The translations under genes were made by a program, and so were the position numbers. A model generated the notes under the pieces. That model did not search any database. It saw only the letters and a list, made by a program, of their open reading frames with translations, and was not told the DNA's origin. From Nitrospirota bacterium (GTDB taxonomy: Bacteria; Nitrospirota; Thermodesulfovibrionia; Thermodesulfovibrionales; SM23-35), in NCBI GenBank assembly GCA_014859105.1, contig JACUUX010000003.1, positions 62,001-126,000 of the forward strand: 64,000 bases of DNA. Reading direction: 5' to 3'. Shown here piece after piece: positions 305 to 34,032 of the stretch; position 1 is the stretch's first letter, and each line of letters opens with the position of its first letter.

Positions 305-3300
305 TTATTTTATATCAGCGTGGTAACTTTGCAGTGATTTAACGTCTCCGTGCCCGCGCCGGAAGGCCTCGATTCCCCGTACAGCAGCGACTGCTGCAGC
401 TGATGTCGTAATATATGTCACCTTGTATTTAATCGCCGCCTTACGGATATAAGAGTCGTCGTACTTACTCAGTTTTCCGCTCGGTGTATTAATCACAAGA
501 TGTATTTCCTTGTTCTTGATTGCATCAACAATGTTCGGTCGGCCTTGGTGGAGTTTATCGATGGGTTCGGCTTTGATACCGTTCTCGGTAAGGAACTGAT
601 ATGTTCCACTTGTTGCCCTTATCGTGAAGCCAAGTTTCTCAAACCGTTTGGCTACGGGAAGCACAGATGGCTTGTCATGGTCTGACACTGTTAATAATAC
701 CGTGCCTTCATTGGGAAGATGAGACCGGGCGGCCTCCATCGCTTTATAGAAAGCCAGGCCGAAGGAATCAGCCATACCGAGTACTTCCCCTGTTGAACGC
801 ATCTCGGGGCCGAGGAGCGGGTCTACCTCCGGGAACATATTAAACGGAAAGACCGCTTCTTTCACGCCAAAATGCGGGATGTGTTTGGACGTGAGACCGA
901 GGTCCGCGATTTTTTTGCCCAGCATTATTTGCGTTGCAAGACGGGCCATGGGGATATTGCAGACCTTTGAGACTATGGGAACGGTTCGGGAGGCCCTCGG
1001 ATTAGCCTCGAGAACGTATACCATATCATGTGCAATTGCGTATTGAATATTCATAAGACCTATGACATTGAGTTCAACCGCTATTTTTTTTGTGTATTCA
1101 TAAATTGTTTCCAGGTGTTTGGCAGGGATGCTTATTGGCGGTATGACACATGCAGAGTCGCCGGAATGGATCCCTGCAAGTTCAATATGTTCCATGACCG
1201 CAGGAACGAGAGCATCGGTCCCGTCAGCAATGGCATCTGCCTCAGCCTCTATGGCGTTCTCAAGAAACTTGTCAACAAGGATTGGCCTATCGGGAGTAAC
1301 CCCAACCGCTGCAGCTATATAGTGTTTCAGCATCTCCTCGTCATGAACAATTTCCATACCCCTGCCTCCCAGTACATAAGATGGCCTGACAATGAGCGGA
1401 TACCCTATTTGTTCAGACAATTCCATGGCTTCGCTGAGTGTGCTTGCCACACCCGCATCAGGCATGGGGATTCCCAGTTTTTTCATCATTTCCCTGAATC
1501 TGTCCCTGTCCTCAGCGAGATCAATCGTTTCAGTTGAAGTCCCGATGATTTTTACGCCTGCTTCAGCAAGTTCCCTGGCAATGTTGAGCGGTGTCTGCCC
1601 CCCGAATTGTACAATAACCCCTTCAGGTTTCTCTTTTTCATATATTGATAGAACGTCCTCTACTGTAATGGGTTCAAAGTACAATTTGTCAGACGTATCG
1701 TAATCGGTTGAGACTGTTTCGGGATTACAGTTAACCATGATAGATTCATACCCCTCATCCCGGAGCGTAAAGGCTGCATGCACGCAGCAGTAATCGAACT
1801 CGATTCCCTGGCCAATCCGGTTCGGACCGCCTCCGATAACCATGATCTTTCTGCGCGTGCTTCTTTCTACTTTGTCAGGCGCGTTATAGGTGGAGAAATA
1901 GTATGCTGCGTTTTCAACTCCGCTCACAGGGACTGGTTCCCACGCCTGAACTATACCTAAAGCTTTACGTCTTTCACGAAATTCTCTTTCAGGAACTCTT
2001 AGAAGTTGAGCGAGATACCGGTCGGCAAAACCGTCCTTTTTGGCACGGATCAGCAAATCATCGGGTAATCTCTGTCCTTTGTACTTAAGGATTGCTTCTT
2101 CCAATTCTACAAGCTCTTTCATCTGAACGATAAACCAGGGTTTGATATGTGTCTTTTCATAGAGCGCATCCACAGAAGCGCCTTTTCTGAGAGCTTCATA
2201 CATGATAAATTGACGTTCACTGGTAGGAATTCCGAGGAGTTTCATTAATTCCTGTAGAGATTTCTGGTTAAAGTCTTTTGCAAAACCGAGTCCGAACCGA
2301 CCGATTTCCAGTGAGCGAATAGATTTTTGGCATGCTTCCTTGTATGTTTTTCCAATGCTCATGACCTCACCGACAGCTCTCATCTGGGTACCCAGTTTGT
2401 CTTCAACCCCTTCGAACTTCTCAAATGCCCACCTGGCAAACTTGACAACCACATAGTCTCCCCATGGAGTATATTTTTCTAATGTGCCTTCCCGCCAGTA
2501 AGGAATTTCATCAAGTGTAAGCCCCCCTGCCAACAGCGATGAGATGAATGCAATGGGGAAGCCCGTGGCTTTGGAAGCAAGGGCCGATGAGCGCGATGTC
2601 CTCGGGTTGATCTCTATCACGACGACACGACCGGTTTTCGGGTCATGGGCAAATTGGATATTCGTGCCCCCGATGACCTCTATAGCCTCTACAATTTTAT
2701 AGGAATATTCCTGTAACCGCTTTTGGAGTTCAGGGCCTATGGTGAGCATGGGCGCAGTACAGTAAGAATCGCCGGTATGGATTCCCATGGCATCAACATT
2801 TTCAATGAAGCAAACGGTGATCATCTGATTTTTCGCATCGCGGACTACTTCAAGTTCCAGTTCTTCCCATCCTAATACAGACTCTTCCACAAGTATCTGG
2901 CCAATTAGGCTGGCAGAAATACCGCGGCCGGCAACTGCTCGCAATTCTTCTCTGTTGTAGACAAGCCCCCCTCCTGTACCTCCGAGCGTGTATGCAGGAC
3001 GAATGACAACCGGATAACCGAGTTGTGAAGCAATCGCCTCAGCCTCTTCAATGCTGAAAGCAGGCTCGCTTTTCGGCATCTCGATACCTAACTGTTCCAT
3101 TGTTTTTTTAAAGGCGATACGGTCTTCACCCCTCTCAATTGCATCTGCTTCCACTCCGATTATTTTGATGCCATATTCTTTAAGAAAACCGCTCCGTGCC
3201 AGTTCAGCAGTGAGATTCAGACCTGTTTGGCCGCCCAGATTTGGGAGAATAGCGTCAGGCTTCTCCTTTTCCATGATTTTTTTCACGGTATCTACGGTAA

Positions 3301-27623: not shown

Positions 27624-30600
27624 ATGAGTCTATTGCATTTTTATCGAAAACCAGCCCTTACGCAGCCAAAGACAAACGGACTGTTATCGATTGCGAAACA
27701 GAAAATATCGCCTGATATTCTCGAGATAGAAACAGAATACTGTTTTAATGTTGAGACTTCACATCCACTTACAGGGGAGGAGTTGAATATCCTCCGATGG
27801 CTTCTGGCAGAAACCTTTGAGCCGGAGAATTTTGGCGATAGAAGTTTTCTAACGCATAATTCAGAATACATCCCCCCCTCCCCCTCGAGGGGGGAGGGTG
27901 AGGGAGGGGGTGAAGGTCTTTTTACCCGTCACTCGTCACCTGTCACTCGTTACCGTCTTCTTGAGGTTGGCCCCCGCATGAACTTCACAACAGCATGGTC
28001 TACAAATGCGGTGTCAGTATGTCATGCTTGCGGAATTAAAAAGATTACACGGATTGAGCGGTCGAGGAGATATAAATTAGTCATAAGTCATCAGTCACCC
28101 CTCCTCAATCCCCCCCTTAATAAGGGGGGGAAAGGGGGGGGTAAGTTATCATCCCTTCAACCTTCAACCTTCAACCTTCAACCTTTTTTGGACTTGATTC
28201 ACGACCGAATGACTGAATGCCAATATCCAGAACCTCTTTCGACCTTCGAAACAGGTATAAACCCAGAGCCGGTTTGCATTGTTCCATTAATTGAGGAAGG
28301 GAAAAATACTCTCAGAAAGATAAACACCGAAATGGGACTCGGGCTCGATGAATGGGACATAGATTATTATTACAACCTGTTTGTTAATGAAATGCATCGA
28401 AATCCCACGAATGCAGAATATTTTGACCTCGGTCAGTCAAACAGCGAGCATTCAAGACACTGGTTCTTCAAGGGAAGATTGATAATTGACGTAGAGGAAA
28501 TGCCCCAGACGCTCATGGAAATAATTAAGTATCCATTAAAGACTAATCCTAATAACAGCGTCATCGCTTTTAAAGACAACTCAAGTGCGATACGCGGATA
28601 TAAAATATTTACAATCATTCCGGAAAAATCCGGAAAACCATCACGATTTAAAAAAGAAATATTGGATTACTACATAATCTTCACAGCCGAAACACATAAT
28701 TTTCCTACCGGTGTAGCACCTTTCCCCGGAGCAGAAACAGGCACAGGGGGAAGGATAAGAGATATTCATGCAACCGGAAGGGGTAGCCTGGTGATAGCGG
28801 GTACTGCAGCCTATTGCGTCGGCAATCTTCATATACCCGGCTATTACCTGCCCTGGGAGGATCTGTCTTTCGAATACCCCAAAAACCTTGCAACCCCCTT
28901 ACAGATAGAGATAGAAGCAAGCAATGGTGCATCAGATTATGGGAATAAATTTGGCGAGCCTGTAATACAGGGTTTTACAAGGTCTTTCGGGATGAGACTC
29001 CCAGATGGCGAAAGGAGGGAATGGGTAAAACCCATAATGTTTACCGGCGGTGTCGGCCAGATAGATGACAGACATATTGAAAAGGGAGAGCCTCAAAAAG
29101 GGATGTTCGTTGTTAAGATCGGTGGTCCTGCTTACAGAATCGGAATGGGCGGCGGTGCTGCATCGAGCTTGATACTGGGAGAAAACATAGAAGAGCTTGA
29201 CTTCAATGCTGTACAGCGTGGTGACGCAGAGATGGAGCAGAAGGTTAACAGGGTCATAAGGGCTTGTGTAGAAATGGGAGATGATAATCCTATCGTAAGC
29301 ATCCATGACCAGGGGGCGGGAGGTAACTGTAATGTAGTTAAAGAGATAATTTATCCTGCTGGAGCAAAGATCGAGATAAGAAATATCCAGCTCGGTGACA
29401 ATACCCTTTCGGTACTCGAGATATGGGGCGCTGAATATCAGGAACAGGACGCTTTACTCATAAAACCTGAAAGAGAGGAAGAATTCCTATCTGTCTGTAA
29501 GAGGGAGAAAGTTCCCTGCGCGGTAATTGGTGAAATTACTGGAGACGGATATATAGTTCTTCACGATGAAACAGATGGTAGCACGCCTGTGAATCTCGAT
29601 CTTTCAAAAGTTCTTGGTGATATGCCGCAGAAGATCTTTATGTCCGAAAGAATAAAACCAAAACTCGAAGCTTTAAAATTACCAGAAGATTTAACATTTA
29701 AAGAAGCCCTTAATCGTGTACTTCGCCTCATTTCAGTTGGTTCAAAAAGATTTCTGACCAATAAAGTCGATAGGTCGGTTACAGGTCTTGTTGCTCAACA
29801 ACAGTGTACCGGCCCTCTTCAATTGACTCTATCGAATGTTGCCGTAATTAGTCAGAGTCATTTTAGTTTGACAGGTGCAGCTATTTCCATTGGTGAACAA
29901 CCAATAAAAGGTTTGATAAGCCCCGGGGCGATGGCAAGAATGAGTGTAGGAGAATCGCTCACGAATATAGTATGGGCGAAGGTAAGTTCATTGGAAGACA
30001 TTAAATGTTCAGGGAACTGGATGTGGGCTGTCAAGCTTGCAGGTGAAGGCGCCAGATTGTATGATGCTGCAATAGCATTGAGAGATATCCTTGTTAAATT
30101 CGGAATGGCCATTGACGGGGGTAAGGATAGTCTATCGATGGCTGCAAAGATTGTTGATCCATCAGGCAGGACAGAGATAGTTAAATCACCAGGCACTCTT
30201 GTTATCTCTGCATACGTAACATGTCCTGATATTGCAAAGGTTATAACACCCGATTTAAAAAGACCTGGTGAGAGCAGATTGCTTTATATTGATCTCGGAA
30301 AAGGTAAATACAGGATGGGAGGAACTGCATTAGCACATGTTTACGGTCAACTCGGTAATGAAGCACCCGACCTCGATGACCAAGACCTTTTCAAGCACGT
30401 ATTTAATGCTATACAGGAAATTATTTCAGAGGATTTAATCCTGTCGGGCCATGACAGAAGTGACGGAGGATTGATAACAACCCTGCTCGAAATGGCATTT
30501 GGAGGTAATTGCGGAATTAAAATTAACATAGAAGTTAAGAAGATAAGAAGCTCGGAAGATAAGAAATCTAAACTTCATAACCTCTCAACTTCTCAACTTC

Positions 30601-31772
30601 TGTCTATATTATTCTCTGAAGAATTAGGACTGGTAACCGAATATCTTGCTGAAAAAGAAGAACAGATAATATCCAAACTGCAAAAATACAATATCCCTTA
30701 CCAAATCATTGGCAGTACTACTAAAGAACAGACAATCAAAATAAGTATAAATAATGAATTGATTATGAAAGAAGATATGAGAGTTCTCAGGGCTATATGG
30801 GAAGATACGAGCTATCACTTAGACATGCTCCAGGCAAATCCGGAATGTGTTGATGAAGAAAGAGCCGTAAATTTTGACAGGAAGGGACCTCAATATGTAC
30901 TGACATTTTCCCCTAAAAATCCCCCCACCCCCCCTTTACTAAAGGGGGGCAAGGGGGGATTAACGGATGTTAAGCCGAAAATAGCCATTATCCGTGAAGA
31001 AGGAAGCAATGGCGACCGCGAAATGACATCCGCCTTTTATCAGGCAGGGTTTGAAGTCTGGGATGTAATGATGACAGACATGCTTGAAGAAAGAATAAAC
31101 CTCGATGATTTCAGGGGTATCGCCTTTGTAGGAGGATTCAGTTATGCAGACGTCCTCGATTCTGCAAAAGGCTGGGCCGGAGTGATAAGGTTCAATAAAA
31201 AACTTTACGAACAATTCCAGAGTTTTTATGAAAGGCCTGATACTTTCAGTCTTGGTGTATGTAACGGCTGTCAGCTAATGGCGCTCCTTGGATGGGTGCC
31301 GTGGAGTGGAATCCCGGACAGATTTCAGCCGAGGTTCATACAGAACATATCCGGCAGGTTTGAATCACGTTTTTCAACAGTAAAAATATTACCTGGTCCT
31401 GCCATCATGCTGAAGGGCATGGGAGGCTCTACTTTAGGAGTATGGGTAGCACATGGTGAAGGAAGGCTTAATTTCCCTGACAGTAAAATACAGGAAGAAG
31501 TGTTAAGAAAAAATCTTGCTCCTCTGAGGTTTGTTGATGATAATGGAGAATTTACTGAAAAATATCCCTTCAATCCCAACGGCTCTCCTTCAGGCATTAC
31601 AGCACTCAGTTCGCCGGATGGCAGACATCTCGCCATGATGCCGCATCCCGAAAGAACATTCCTGAAATGGCAATGGGCCTATATTCCGGGGGAATGGAAA
31701 AAAACCCTCGAAGCCTCCCCGTGGTTCAAGATGTTCCAGAATGCAAGGGAGTGGTGTAAATCAACACTCTAA
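27624..31772 (+). CDS. purL: Phosphoribosylformylglycinamidine synthase, single-chain, with repeat-derived inserts
   Basis: Fourth step of purine synthesis, FGAR to FGAM. It is one polypeptide of 1382 residues with the synthetase core (for example ETHNFPTGVAPFPGAETGTGG and GGDAQITG-like PurL blocks from about 350) fused to a C-terminal glutamine amidotransferase from about 1118 (GVCNGCQLM nucleophile Cys, about 1212). It corresponds to the large PurL of Gammaproteobacteria (about 1295 residues), not the small PurL plus PurQ/PurS complex. Four inserts account for most of the extra length: about 79-111, 152-188, 982-993 and 1097-1113. They derive from GC-rich palindromes and heptanucleotide arrays. 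The last falls exactly in the linker before the amidotransferase domain. The frame is open throughout. Confidence 0.95.
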   Translation: MSLLHFYRKPALTQPKTNGLLSIAKQKISPDILEIETEYCFNVETSHPLTGEELNILRWLLAETFEPENFGDRSFLTHNSEYIPPSPSRGEGEGGGEGLFTRHSSPVTRYRLLEVGPRMNFTTAWSTNAVSVCHACGIKKITRIERSRRYKLVISHQSPLLNPPLNKGGKGGGKLSSLQPSTFNLQPFLDLIHDRMTECQYPEPLSTFETGINPEPVCIVPLIEEGKNTLRKINTEMGLGLDEWDIDYYYNLFVNEMHRNPTNAEYFDLGQSNSEHSRHWFFKGRLIIDVEEMPQTLMEIIKYPLKTNPNNSVIAFKDNSSAIRGYKIFTIIPEKSGKPSRFKKEILDYYIIFTAETHNFPTGVAPFPGAETGTGGRIRDIHATGRGSLVIAGTAAYCVGNLHIPGYYLPWEDLSFEYPKNLATPLQIEIEASNGASDYGNKFGEPVIQGFTRSFGMRLPDGERREWVKPIMFTGGVGQIDDRHIEKGEPQKGMFVVKIGGPAYRIGMGGGAASSLILGENIEELDFNAVQRGDAEMEQKVNRVIRACVEMGDDNPIVSIHDQGAGGNCNVVKEIIYPAGAKIEIRNIQLGDNTLSVLEIWGAEYQEQDALLIKPEREEEFLSVCKREKVPCAVIGEITGDGYIVLHDETDGSTPVNLDLSKVLGDMPQKIFMSERIKPKLEALKLPEDLTFKEALNRVLRLISVGSKRFLTNKVDRSVTGLVAQQQCTGPLQLTLSNVAVISQSHFSLTGAAISIGEQPIKGLISPGAMARMSVGESLTNIVWAKVSSLEDIKCSGNWMWAVKLAGEGARLYDAAIALRDILVKFGMAIDGGKDSLSMAAKIVDPSGRTEIVKSPGTLVISAYVTCPDIAKVITPDLKRPGESRLLYIDLGKGKYRMGGTALAHVYGQLGNEAPDLDDQDLFKHVFNAIQEIISEDLILSGHDRSDGGLITTLLEMAFGGNCGIKINIEVKKIRSSEDKKSKLHNLSTSQLLSILFSEELGLVTEYLAEKEEQIISKLQKYNIPYQIIGSTTKEQTIKISINNELIMKEDMRVLRAIWEDTSYHLDMLQANPECVDEERAVNFDRKGPQYVLTFSPKNPPTPPLLKGGKGGLTDVKPKIAIIREEGSNGDREMTSAFYQAGFEVWDVMMTDMLEERINLDDFRGIAFVGGFSYADVLDSAKGWAGVIRFNKKLYEQFQSFYERPDTFSLGVCNGCQLMALLGWVPWSGIPDRFQPRFIQNISGRFESRFSTVKILPGPAIMLKGMGGSTLGVWVAHGEGRLNFPDSKIQEEVLRKNLAPLRFVDDNGEFTEKYPFNPNGSPSGITALSSPDGRHLAMMPHPERTFLKWQWAYIPGEWKKTLEASPWFKMFQNAREWCKSTL
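27865..27957. repeat. Palindrome plus heptamer insert 1 in purL
   Basis: CCCCCCCTCCCCCTC-GAG-GGGGGAGGG-type inverted repeat at 27870-27913, followed by GTCACTC GTCACCT GTCACTC GTTACC (27928-27955), a 7-base period array. The product is a Pro/Ser then Gly/Glu-rich loop followed by Ser/His/Arg residues near position 79-111 of PurL. Confidence 0.85.
28078..28187. repeat. Composite repeat insert 2 in purL
   Basis: Three blocks in a row: a short GTCATAA GTCATCA GTCACCC heptamer run (28080-28100), an inverted repeat AATCCCCCCCTTA ... TAAGGGGGGG (28107-28140), and four near-exact CTTCAAC heptamers (28155-28182). The frame stays open, giving residues about 152-188 (Ser/His, Pro/Leu/Asn, Gly/Lys, then Ser/Gln/Pro). 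Confidence 0.9.
30569..30603. repeat. Short tandem repeat insert 3 in purL
   Basis: AACTTCATAACCTCTCAACT and a second CTCAACTT unit give a 7-8 base period. It is read as a Leu/Ser/Thr-rich piece (LSTSQLLS) between conserved PurL segments near residue 985. Confidence 0.6.
30915..30961. repeat. GC-rich palindrome insert 4 in purL
   Basis: Arms AATCCCCCCACCCCCC and GGGGGGCAAGGGGGGATT around TTTACTAAA. It is read NPPTPPLLKGGKGGL at the linker between the synthetase and glutamine amidotransferase domains. Nearly the same peptide (NPPVPPLAKGGEGGF) appears in WaaA from the copy at 53348-53393. Confidence 0.92.
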
Positions 31773-31813
31773 ATTTTTAAATAACCCTGTCTGCCCGCCC
31801 CTTTTCTTCTTTT

Positions 31814-32716
31814 TTATTCTGTCCTGTATAATTTTTCTCTCAATAAATTTATCAGGAATCTCGCTGATAAAAGAAGACGGCGATTGAATATGTCTCTGTC
31901 CATATAAAAACCTGTTGACCGATAATTGTCCTTCAGGGTAATTCTCTGTGCATTCTTAAAATCTTTCTCAAAGTTCAGGAAGTTTGTGATATCGGCTCCT
32001 CTGAAAGCATAAATTGACTGGTCTGAATCACCGATTACACAGAGATTAGCCATTTCATGTGCAAGAAGTTTCATCAATTTATACTGTGCCGGGTTTATGT
32101 CCTGATATTCGTCTACCATGACGTATTCGAACATATTTTTATATTTTTCCGGGACTTCATTATTCCTGAATATATCTATTGGTTTGAGTATGAGGTCATC
32201 AAAATCAATGGCATTGTTTTTTATCATTGCTGATTGATATTTTTTATAAATCTCCTTTACTCCATCATCTGCTTCTTTTATTAAATTCTTTATCTTTGAT
32301 ATTTTTTCAACTAATTGCTGGACTTTAAAATCTGAATTCTTAAAGAGTTTTTTTAAAAGACTCGCCTGTTCATCTCTGTCATAGATTACGAAGCTGCTTG
32401 AATATATGTCTTGAATAATCCTCAGGCCAAGATAATGGAACGTACCGATAAAAACTTTTCTGGCTTTATTTCCTAATAACGCCTCCGTTCGCTCCCGCAT
32501 TTCCTGCGCTGCTCGATTTGTAAAAGTGACTGCTAAAATATTTTCAGGCCTGACACCTTTATGAATTAAGTAAGCGATTCTCCGTGTTAATGTTAAAGTC
32601 TTCCCCGTACCCGGTCCTGCAATAATCATCACAGACCCTTCAGTCATCATTACTGCTTTCTTTTGAGATTCATTTAAGCCATGAAGAATCATCTCAAAAG
32701 AGCGTTGCCTGGCCAT
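31814..32716 (-). pseudogene. UvrD/Rep-type helicase, C-terminal half missing
   Basis: 300 residues carry motifs I (AGPGTGKT), Ia (TFTNRAAQEM), II (VDEYQDIN), III (GDSDQSIYAFRGA) and IV (NYRST, about residue 265). Instead of the usual 300 or more further residues with motifs V and VI, about 30 unrelated residues follow before the stop, and purL's 3' end lies 41 bases beyond. Without motifs V and VI it should not be a working helicase. It overlaps the EndoQ-like gene by 23 bases, so the two were surely one operon, and in relatives I recall the two activities being adjacent or fused. It may be a decayed gene, or a retained N-terminal ATPase/DNA-binding piece. Confidence 0.7.
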
Positions 32717-33965
32717 TGATCTCTTTCCTCTCGACAGGCTCGAAAATTCTTATCTTTCCATATTCTCCATCATAACCGGGTGCAATAAAAACATTACCGG
32801 CACGCATACGGGAGATGGCTTCTTTGATGAGGGGAGAACTTGCCTTTTCTATCTCTTCAAGAGATACATCCACGAGGATTTTAAATTCACTGCCAAGTTT
32901 CTGAACCAGATTATTATATGAGCTTCCCACTGTTTTGCTGTTTACACCTACTTTTAATGCTTCTGCAAGGATTTCTGGCAACGGGATTATGGAATAAAAA
33001 GATGGTGCACCCGCGGGTTTAAAGCCATTCTCTCTGTCGGCAAGTTTTTCAACCCTGTGCATTACACCTACGGTAACTCTCTTGCCACATACAGGACATA
33101 GATAGTTATGTTTAATTGTTTCTTTTGGGGAGAGGCTGACTCGGCAAAATCTGTGCCCGTCATAATGATATTTCCCTTCTTCAGGGAAAAATTCTATTGT
33201 TCCAAGAAAACCTTTTTTCGTTTTAATGGCAGATGTTATGGAATTGTAAGTTAGATCGGTATCTAATATGTTTGCTTCCCTCCCTATCTTTGATGGTGAA
33301 TGTGCATCGGAATTGGATATAAGTGTAATCCTGTCAAGAGATGAAAGTCTCCAGTTCATTGCCGGGTCTGAAGATAGACCTGTTTCTATAGCATAAATAT
33401 GCGGGGTCAAATCCTCAAAACATTCTTCAAGTGAATCAAAGCCTGATTCTGCTCCGAAAACAGAAAAATGCGGTGTCCATGCATGTGCAGGTACAAGCAG
33501 GGAATTATGTGATAAATCATTTACAATTTTCAAAAGTTCCTTTGCATCGATTCCCAGTATAGGCCTACCGTCAGCATTGAGATTGCCTATCTTTGAAAGG
33601 GTAATATTTAACCTTGCGGCGTCATCAAAATCAGGAACGAAAACAATAGAATGTATTTTACGGGTCTTCCCGTTTTTGCTATATATGCAACTTATTTCAG
33701 CAGAAAGGAGGAAAAACACTTCAGTCCTACACGATTCAGGAATATCATTGCTTTTAAAATTGCCTTTCAGCCTGAAAAGTCCATTTACTGATGGTTCAAG
33801 TTTTTCCTGCAGTTCTTTGAACCATTTTGGATGTGTAAAGTCGCCTGTTCCTATTACTGCAATACCTTTTAACTGCGCCCATCTCCAGATACTTTCAGGA
33901 GACATGTCTTTACTTGTTGCCCTGGAATACTTTGAATGAATATGGAGGTCAGCAATAAAACGCAT
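32694..33965 (-). CDS. Endonuclease Q (EndoQ)-like PHP-domain protein
   Basis: 423 residues of the family once called TIGR00375. Archaeal and some bacterial members, named EndoQ, nick DNA 5' of deaminated bases (uracil, hypoxanthine, xanthine). The PHP metal motif is ADLHIHSKYS near the start, with GTGDFTHP (about 48-55), SAEISC, VPAHAWTP and SNSDAHSP supplying further His/Asp ligands. A zinc-type CPVCGK follows near 284. It ends NGQATLF, which fits the Q-x-x-L-F bacterial sliding-clamp motif, just as archaeal EndoQ ends in a PCNA-binding motif. An earlier start at 33998 is open; the ATG at 33965 (MRFIADLH) fits the family better. Confidence 0.87.
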   Translation of the reverse strand: MRFIADLHIHSKYSRATSKDMSPESIWRWAQLKGIAVIGTGDFTHPKWFKELQEKLEPSVNGLFRLKGNFKSNDIPESCRTEVFFLLSAEISCIYSKNGKTRKIHSIVFVPDFDDAARLNITLSKIGNLNADGRPILGIDAKELLKIVNDLSHNSLLVPAHAWTPHFSVFGAESGFDSLEECFEDLTPHIYAIETGLSSDPAMNWRLSSLDRITLISNSDAHSPSKIGREANILDTDLTYNSITSAIKTKKGFLGTIEFFPEEGKYHYDGHRFCRVSLSPKETIKHNYLCPVCGKRVTVGVMHRVEKLADRENGFKPAGAPSFYSIIPLPEILAEALKVGVNSKTVGSSYNNLVQKLGSEFKILVDVSLEEIEKASSPLIKEAISRMRAGNVFIAPGYDGEYGKIRIFEPVERKEINGQATLF

Positions 33966-34032
33966 ACTGATTATCATACCACGAGATGGATGCTCCATAT
34001 CTAACCCAAAAATATTTAATAAACATGTTCAA

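Follow-up and report, generated by a model that had tools for sequence, protein, structure and literature searches.

Results

An EndoQ gene beside half a helicase

In the 64,000-nucleotide stretch of a Nitrospirota draft genome analysed here (referred to as the window), a gene for an EndoQ-like nuclease overlaps a UvrD-type gene that holds only half of a helicase, which raises the question of whether the second gene is a reduced but working partner of the first or the remains of a complete one. In our judgement it is highly probable that the locus is a partly degraded repair unit, composed of EndoQ and a dedicated UvrD-family helicase which each end in a QxxLF motif, and that the helicase has been broken by a deletion.

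The EndoQ-family PHP endonuclease (TIGR00375) is encoded on the reverse strand, where its longest open reading frame spans 32694-33998; the start at the ATG at 33965, as chosen in the initial annotation, is borne out by homology. Its assignment is based on profile and PfuEndoQ matches and on catalytic residues. The protein was found to be similar over its full length to PfuEndoQ (5zb8; E = 2e-54, residues 16-427) and to match TIGR00375 at positions 2-374 (E = 5.9e-53), with a score of 180.6 bits that lies under the curated cut-off of 326.6 bits; as no match in 246 Nitrospirota genomes passed this cut-off, the low score reflects the calibration of the model for the whole phylum. In the alignment, the residues matching Pfu E76, H84 and H139 (catalytic zinc) and G169 and S171 (base pocket), as named in PMC8307549, are all identical in the window protein, as is that matching D193, a residue identified through the aligned SNSDAH motif. 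The zinc finger consists of three cysteines and one histidine (H282 at the position of Pfu C249), and this arrangement is plausibly a zinc site. EndoQ is predicted to be active in this genome, where it is intact and probably works either alone or with PcrA. A genome search identified a UDG and an EndoV in addition, so that EndoQ is not the sole enzyme for deaminated bases there.

The family had been described in the initial annotation as rare in bacteria, which fails for Nitrospirota, since 106 of the 246 genomes match TIGR00375 (all below the curated cut-off). At one further locus (L035, G051:C27) the EndoQ frame is interrupted by a stop, indicating either a pseudogene or an assembly error.

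The C-terminal motif of EndoQ is conserved

The last five residues of the window EndoQ are QATLF (32697-32711, reverse strand), as had been noticed from the sequence, and they form a clamp-binding-type motif according to column conservation among relatives. The pattern Q..[LIM][FLWY] was present within the last 12 residues of 69 of 85 EndoQ relatives, compared with 0.8% in shuffled tails; these relatives were non-redundant, standalone and had a closed C-terminus, and, being kin by descent, they do not represent 85 independent trials. Relatives without the motif mostly had an early end or an altered tail. The column pattern is stronger evidence than the motif count: in 62 tails of equal length the Q, L and F positions are near-invariant (entropies of 0.24, 0.44 and 0.81 bits, respectively), while both x positions are free (3.4 and 3.1 bits).

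Shiraishi et al. (2016) reported that archaeal EndoQ binds PCNA through its motif, and also stated that the EndoQ homologues of bacteria have C-terminal motifs fitting the beta-clamp consensus (PMC4858679). The earlier reading of QATLF as a clamp motif therefore gains support from its conservation in orthologues, but the idea is not new, having been published for bacterial EndoQ in 2016. It is well supported that the QxxLF tail of the window EndoQ is a conserved beta-clamp-binding-type motif, and the protein presumably binds the clamp. The window genome was found to contain two DnaN clamps (G000:C42:160001-160360 and G000:C80:8631-8984); one of these two dnaN-type genes may sit on a contaminant contig.

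The half helicase is derived from a full-length gene by deletion

The EndoQ frame overlaps a truncated UvrD-type helicase frame of 300 amino acids (31814-32716, reverse strand) by 23 nucleotides (32694-32716, reverse strand), and the ORF coordinates agree with the overlap initially annotated. The 300-residue ORF gives a complete match to PF00580 (UvrD N-terminal domain; positions 1-271, E = 1.2e-76) and no match to PF13361 (UvrD_C), in line with the earlier observation of motifs I-IV without V and VI.

What had been missed is a UvrD C-terminal tail right downstream in another frame. Translation of all frames placed the true helicase tail, NRFLYGQRHIQSPSSFISEIP...QTGLF, directly downstream of the fragment, and the remnant NRFLYGQRHIQSPSSFISEIPDKFIERKIIQDRIKKKKRGGQTGLF (31779-31916, reverse strand) corresponds to the segment after motif VI in relatives (e.g. 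NRFLYGQRLRQMPSPFLREIPEGLIQERVIPDRMIRQKKDNQIGLF in L041), with 23-29 identities over 46-47 aligned positions in comparisons with the tails of five relatives. As the 45-residue tail alone had no match in Pfam, its identity rests on alignment to these relatives. Judged by the relatives' ends, its out-of-frame QTGLF (31779-31793, reverse strand) is a remnant of the helicase's own clamp-like motif; the stop does not follow it directly but comes after a further KNLEC.

DNA comparison with L041, L153 and L120 located the deletion junction. The window reads ...AATTATCGGTCAACAGGTTTTTATATGGACAG... at this point; on the side of motif IV (NYRST-G) the sequence is TCAACAGG in L041 and L153 and TCAACCGG in L120, and on the NRFLYG side, after motif VI, it is GGAACAGGTTTTT in all three. 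The hexamer AACAGG is found at both ends of the missing segment in L041 and L153, and at the NRFLYG end in L120; as it is common to both ends in relatives, the join was placed at 31911-31916 (AACAGG, reverse strand). The nearest relatives have 301-350 codons from NYRS to RFLYG, and about 0.89-1.04 kb, including motifs V and VI, is therefore missing in the window; the missing length is 1 modulo 3, which results in a frameshift. The last ~27 amino acids of the 300-residue ORF are out-of-frame sequence past the deletion. On these sequence grounds, the window helicase is what an internal deletion with a frameshift has left of a full-length helicase, and hence a broken gene. Recombination of the two copies of a 6-bp microhomology most probably removed ~0.9-1.05 kb with motifs V and VI from the partner gene and shifted its frame, and the 300-residue product should be devoid of helicase activity. 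A simple frameshift or sequencing error hiding a full helicase, which the initial annotation had allowed for, was rejected, as none of the three frames between the fragment and purL contains motif V or VI.

The join may instead be an artefact of the assembly or the library that brought together separate stretches of an intact helicase gene, and the draft state of the assembly (148 contigs) and the still recognisable tail in another frame would fit such an event. It is nevertheless unlikely: the join involves only 6 bp of microhomology, much shorter than the k-mers used by assemblers; within 31700-32050 there is no direct repeat of at least 10 bp that might invite k-mer assembly collapse; the missing half was not found on any other contig of the assembly, a full-length relative matching this genome (G000) only over residues 4-266; and another decayed copy occurs in the related genome G009.

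The neighbouring purL gene (27624-31772, forward strand) contains seemingly in-frame palindromic inserts at 28106-28150 and 30917-30962, with the peptides NPPLNKGGKGGG and NPPTPPLLKGGKGGL from cccccc...gggggg. Ends similar to AAATCCCCCC are commoner in the window than in shuffles (13 vs 5.7), and similar peptides occur inside the helicases of relatives (NPPQPSFAKGGN in L076 and NPLSSHFSKGGKGEF in L153).

Pairing, fusion and loss in relatives

The association of EndoQ with a helicase, first suggested by the window alone, is real and widespread, the two being neighbouring or fused in relatives from several bacterial phyla. A full-length helicase adjoins EndoQ in the Thermodesulfovibrio-type loci L077, L079, L080 and L082, with overlaps or tight spacing comparable to those of the window, and in other Nitrospirota (L048, L050 and L076), while it lies farther away in L041 (836 nt) and L042 (1.6 kb). 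In Desulfobacterales, Calditrichota and others, EndoQ and helicase form a single protein of ~1100-1200 amino acids (loci L088, L093, L095, L102, L103, L105, L109, L112, L114 and L117), as in L103, where UvrD N- and C-terminal domains lie behind the EndoQ part. Both motifs are kept in the ten fusions analysed, that of the EndoQ end now being internal (e.g. GQKSLF) and the other standing at the helicase end. EndoQ was found without a nearby helicase at many Nitrospirota loci, and the pair is thus not obligatory. In G009, in which EndoQ is intact, the central part of an EndoQ-type helicase persists as a decayed piece containing a stop codon (L152, G009:C143:6500-10500; 1402-1929, reverse strand), a second instance in which the helicase has been lost.

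A tree of 57 helicases was divided by a branch with support of 100/97 into an EndoQ-associated set and a set of PcrA- and other UvrD-type proteins. The former comprised all 24 rows near or fused to EndoQ ('near' including L041 and L042 at the distances given above and L090 at 2.7 kb), seven motif-bearing proteins from relatives and the window fragment; the latter comprised 25 proteins from the same or related genomes. As placed by sequence, the helicases that adjoin EndoQ or are fused to it group in a single clade, separate from PcrA and the other sampled UvrD-type proteins, 'clade' being conditional on the midpoint root that was used. The window fragment pairs with the full-length G019 helicase (support 100/76) inside a clade of four (100/99). 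The helicases of the EndoQ-associated set terminate in tails of the Q..LF type, such as QIGLF, QMGLF and QLGLF, with weaker versions in L116 (QLTIW, divergent), L115 (a non-terminal variant), L090 and L104 (QLSLL) and Thermodesulfovibrio (QKGLF-like); no such ends were present among the 25 PcrA- and other UvrD-type proteins of the tree.

Some EndoQ-type helicases (in L041, L042, L050, L121, L122, L077, L079, L080 and L082) are only ~530-560 amino acids long. Compared with relatives of 600-700 amino acids, they are shorter by ~70-120 residues in the stretch from motif IV to the tail, and what they lack may belong to domain 2B.

The ancestral EndoQ-UvrD pair might also be read as a defence against uracil- or hypoxanthine-rich phage DNA, laid out like Gabija. 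An antiviral role has been proposed for Bacillus EndoQ (PMC8307549), and the helicases gave hits to GajB and to further UvrD models of defence systems; a match to GajB is, however, expected of any UvrD protein, and housekeeping repair better explains the clamp motifs and the wide distribution across the phylum. No PADLOC model matches EndoQ, which was rejected as a defence gene on this ground, and a defensive origin of the pair is considered very improbable.

It is also very improbable that the 300-residue fragment still functions as a reduced helicase, for instance as a partner that binds DNA or regulates EndoQ. Its frame is open with motifs I-IV intact and 65% identity to a relative (so that continued selection is possible), and, as its start overlaps EndoQ, its translation may persist. 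Against this, the terminal ~27 residues are accidental out-of-frame sequence, motifs V and VI have been lost and no comparable half form was seen among the relatives surveyed. For this last reason, the idea that a half helicase has been conserved in reduced form was rejected. The survey of relatives, which the initial annotation had proposed, returned a full-length copy, a decayed piece or none; the usual state is either a complete helicase or no helicase at all, and the window looks like loss in progress. Of the helicase 'lost or reduced' in the initial annotation, loss fits the deletion scar and a functional reduced partner is unsupported.

Discussion

The identity of EndoQ and its catalytic residues, the conservation of the motifs, the pairing and fusion, the helicase clade and the deletion scar are read directly from the sequences, and the function of the EndoQ-helicase unit is likely to be clamp-tethered repair of deaminated bases. 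The EndoQ enzymes of archaea and Bacillus incise the DNA on the 5' side of the lesion, so that the nick exposes a 3'-OH and the downstream strand carries the lesion at its 5' end, and UvrD-type SF1A helicases move 3'->5'. The order of action would presumably be EndoQ and then the helicase. EndoQ would dock on the clamp and nick 5' of dU, dI or an AP site, leaving a 3'-OH at the clamp; the helicase would dock on the same clamp and move 3'->5' along the template strand. As this is the direction of synthesis, the helicase would peel off the lesion-bearing strand ahead of the clamp-bound polymerase, displacing it in front of repair synthesis. The presence of both proteins on one clamp would couple nicking and unwinding.

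In a broader reading, the EndoQ-UvrD unit with its two clamp motifs represents, across phyla, a glycosylase-independent, clamp-tethered nick-and-unwind pathway of which the window lineage has lost the helicase half; we regard the chances for and against this as evenly balanced. A partner helicase that is conserved, clamp-tagged and fused in several lineages names the likely next step in the processing of EndoQ nicks in bacteria. The fusion offers a single protein in which the pathway can be tested, and the window indicates that a lineage can dispense with the helicase and still retain EndoQ. The clamp motif of EndoQ itself had already been proposed; the present analysis adds a dedicated EndoQ-UvrD unit with a clamp tag on each partner, together with its fused forms. 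In the portion of the literature covered by a limited search, no description was found of a partner helicase or fused forms for bacterial EndoQ, of a PHP/EndoQ-UvrD pair or of a UvrD clamp motif.

Comparison with known systems

The window EndoQ resembles archaeal EndoQ (PfuEndoQ and TkoEndoQ) in full-length homology, catalytic residues and a clamp-type motif at the extreme C-terminus. The archaeal PIP boxes are QRSITEFL/QRTLLQYI (PMC4858679), whereas the window protein has a short bacterial QxxLF-type motif, and a zinc-finger cysteine (Pfu C249) is replaced by histidine. The EndoQ proteins of Bacillus pumilus and B. subtilis belong to the same family; a C-terminal beta-clamp consensus was noted for bacterial EndoQ in 2016 (PMC4858679), and activity of the B. 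pumilus enzyme has been reported, as cited in PMC6202378.

With UvrD, PcrA and Rep (SF1A) the window ORF shares the complete 1A/1B part with motifs I-IV, and its full-length relatives possess UvrD_C. EndoQ-type helicases differ from these proteins in forming a separate clade, in their terminal QxxLF, in the absence of the PcrA C-terminal extension and, in several cases, in their short length (~530-560 amino acids), while the window copy is without motifs V and VI. Gabija (GajA-GajB) has the same layout, with a UvrD-type helicase gene behind that of a nuclease, but the nuclease of the window locus is EndoQ (PHP), which matches no PADLOC model and is not of the GajA type.
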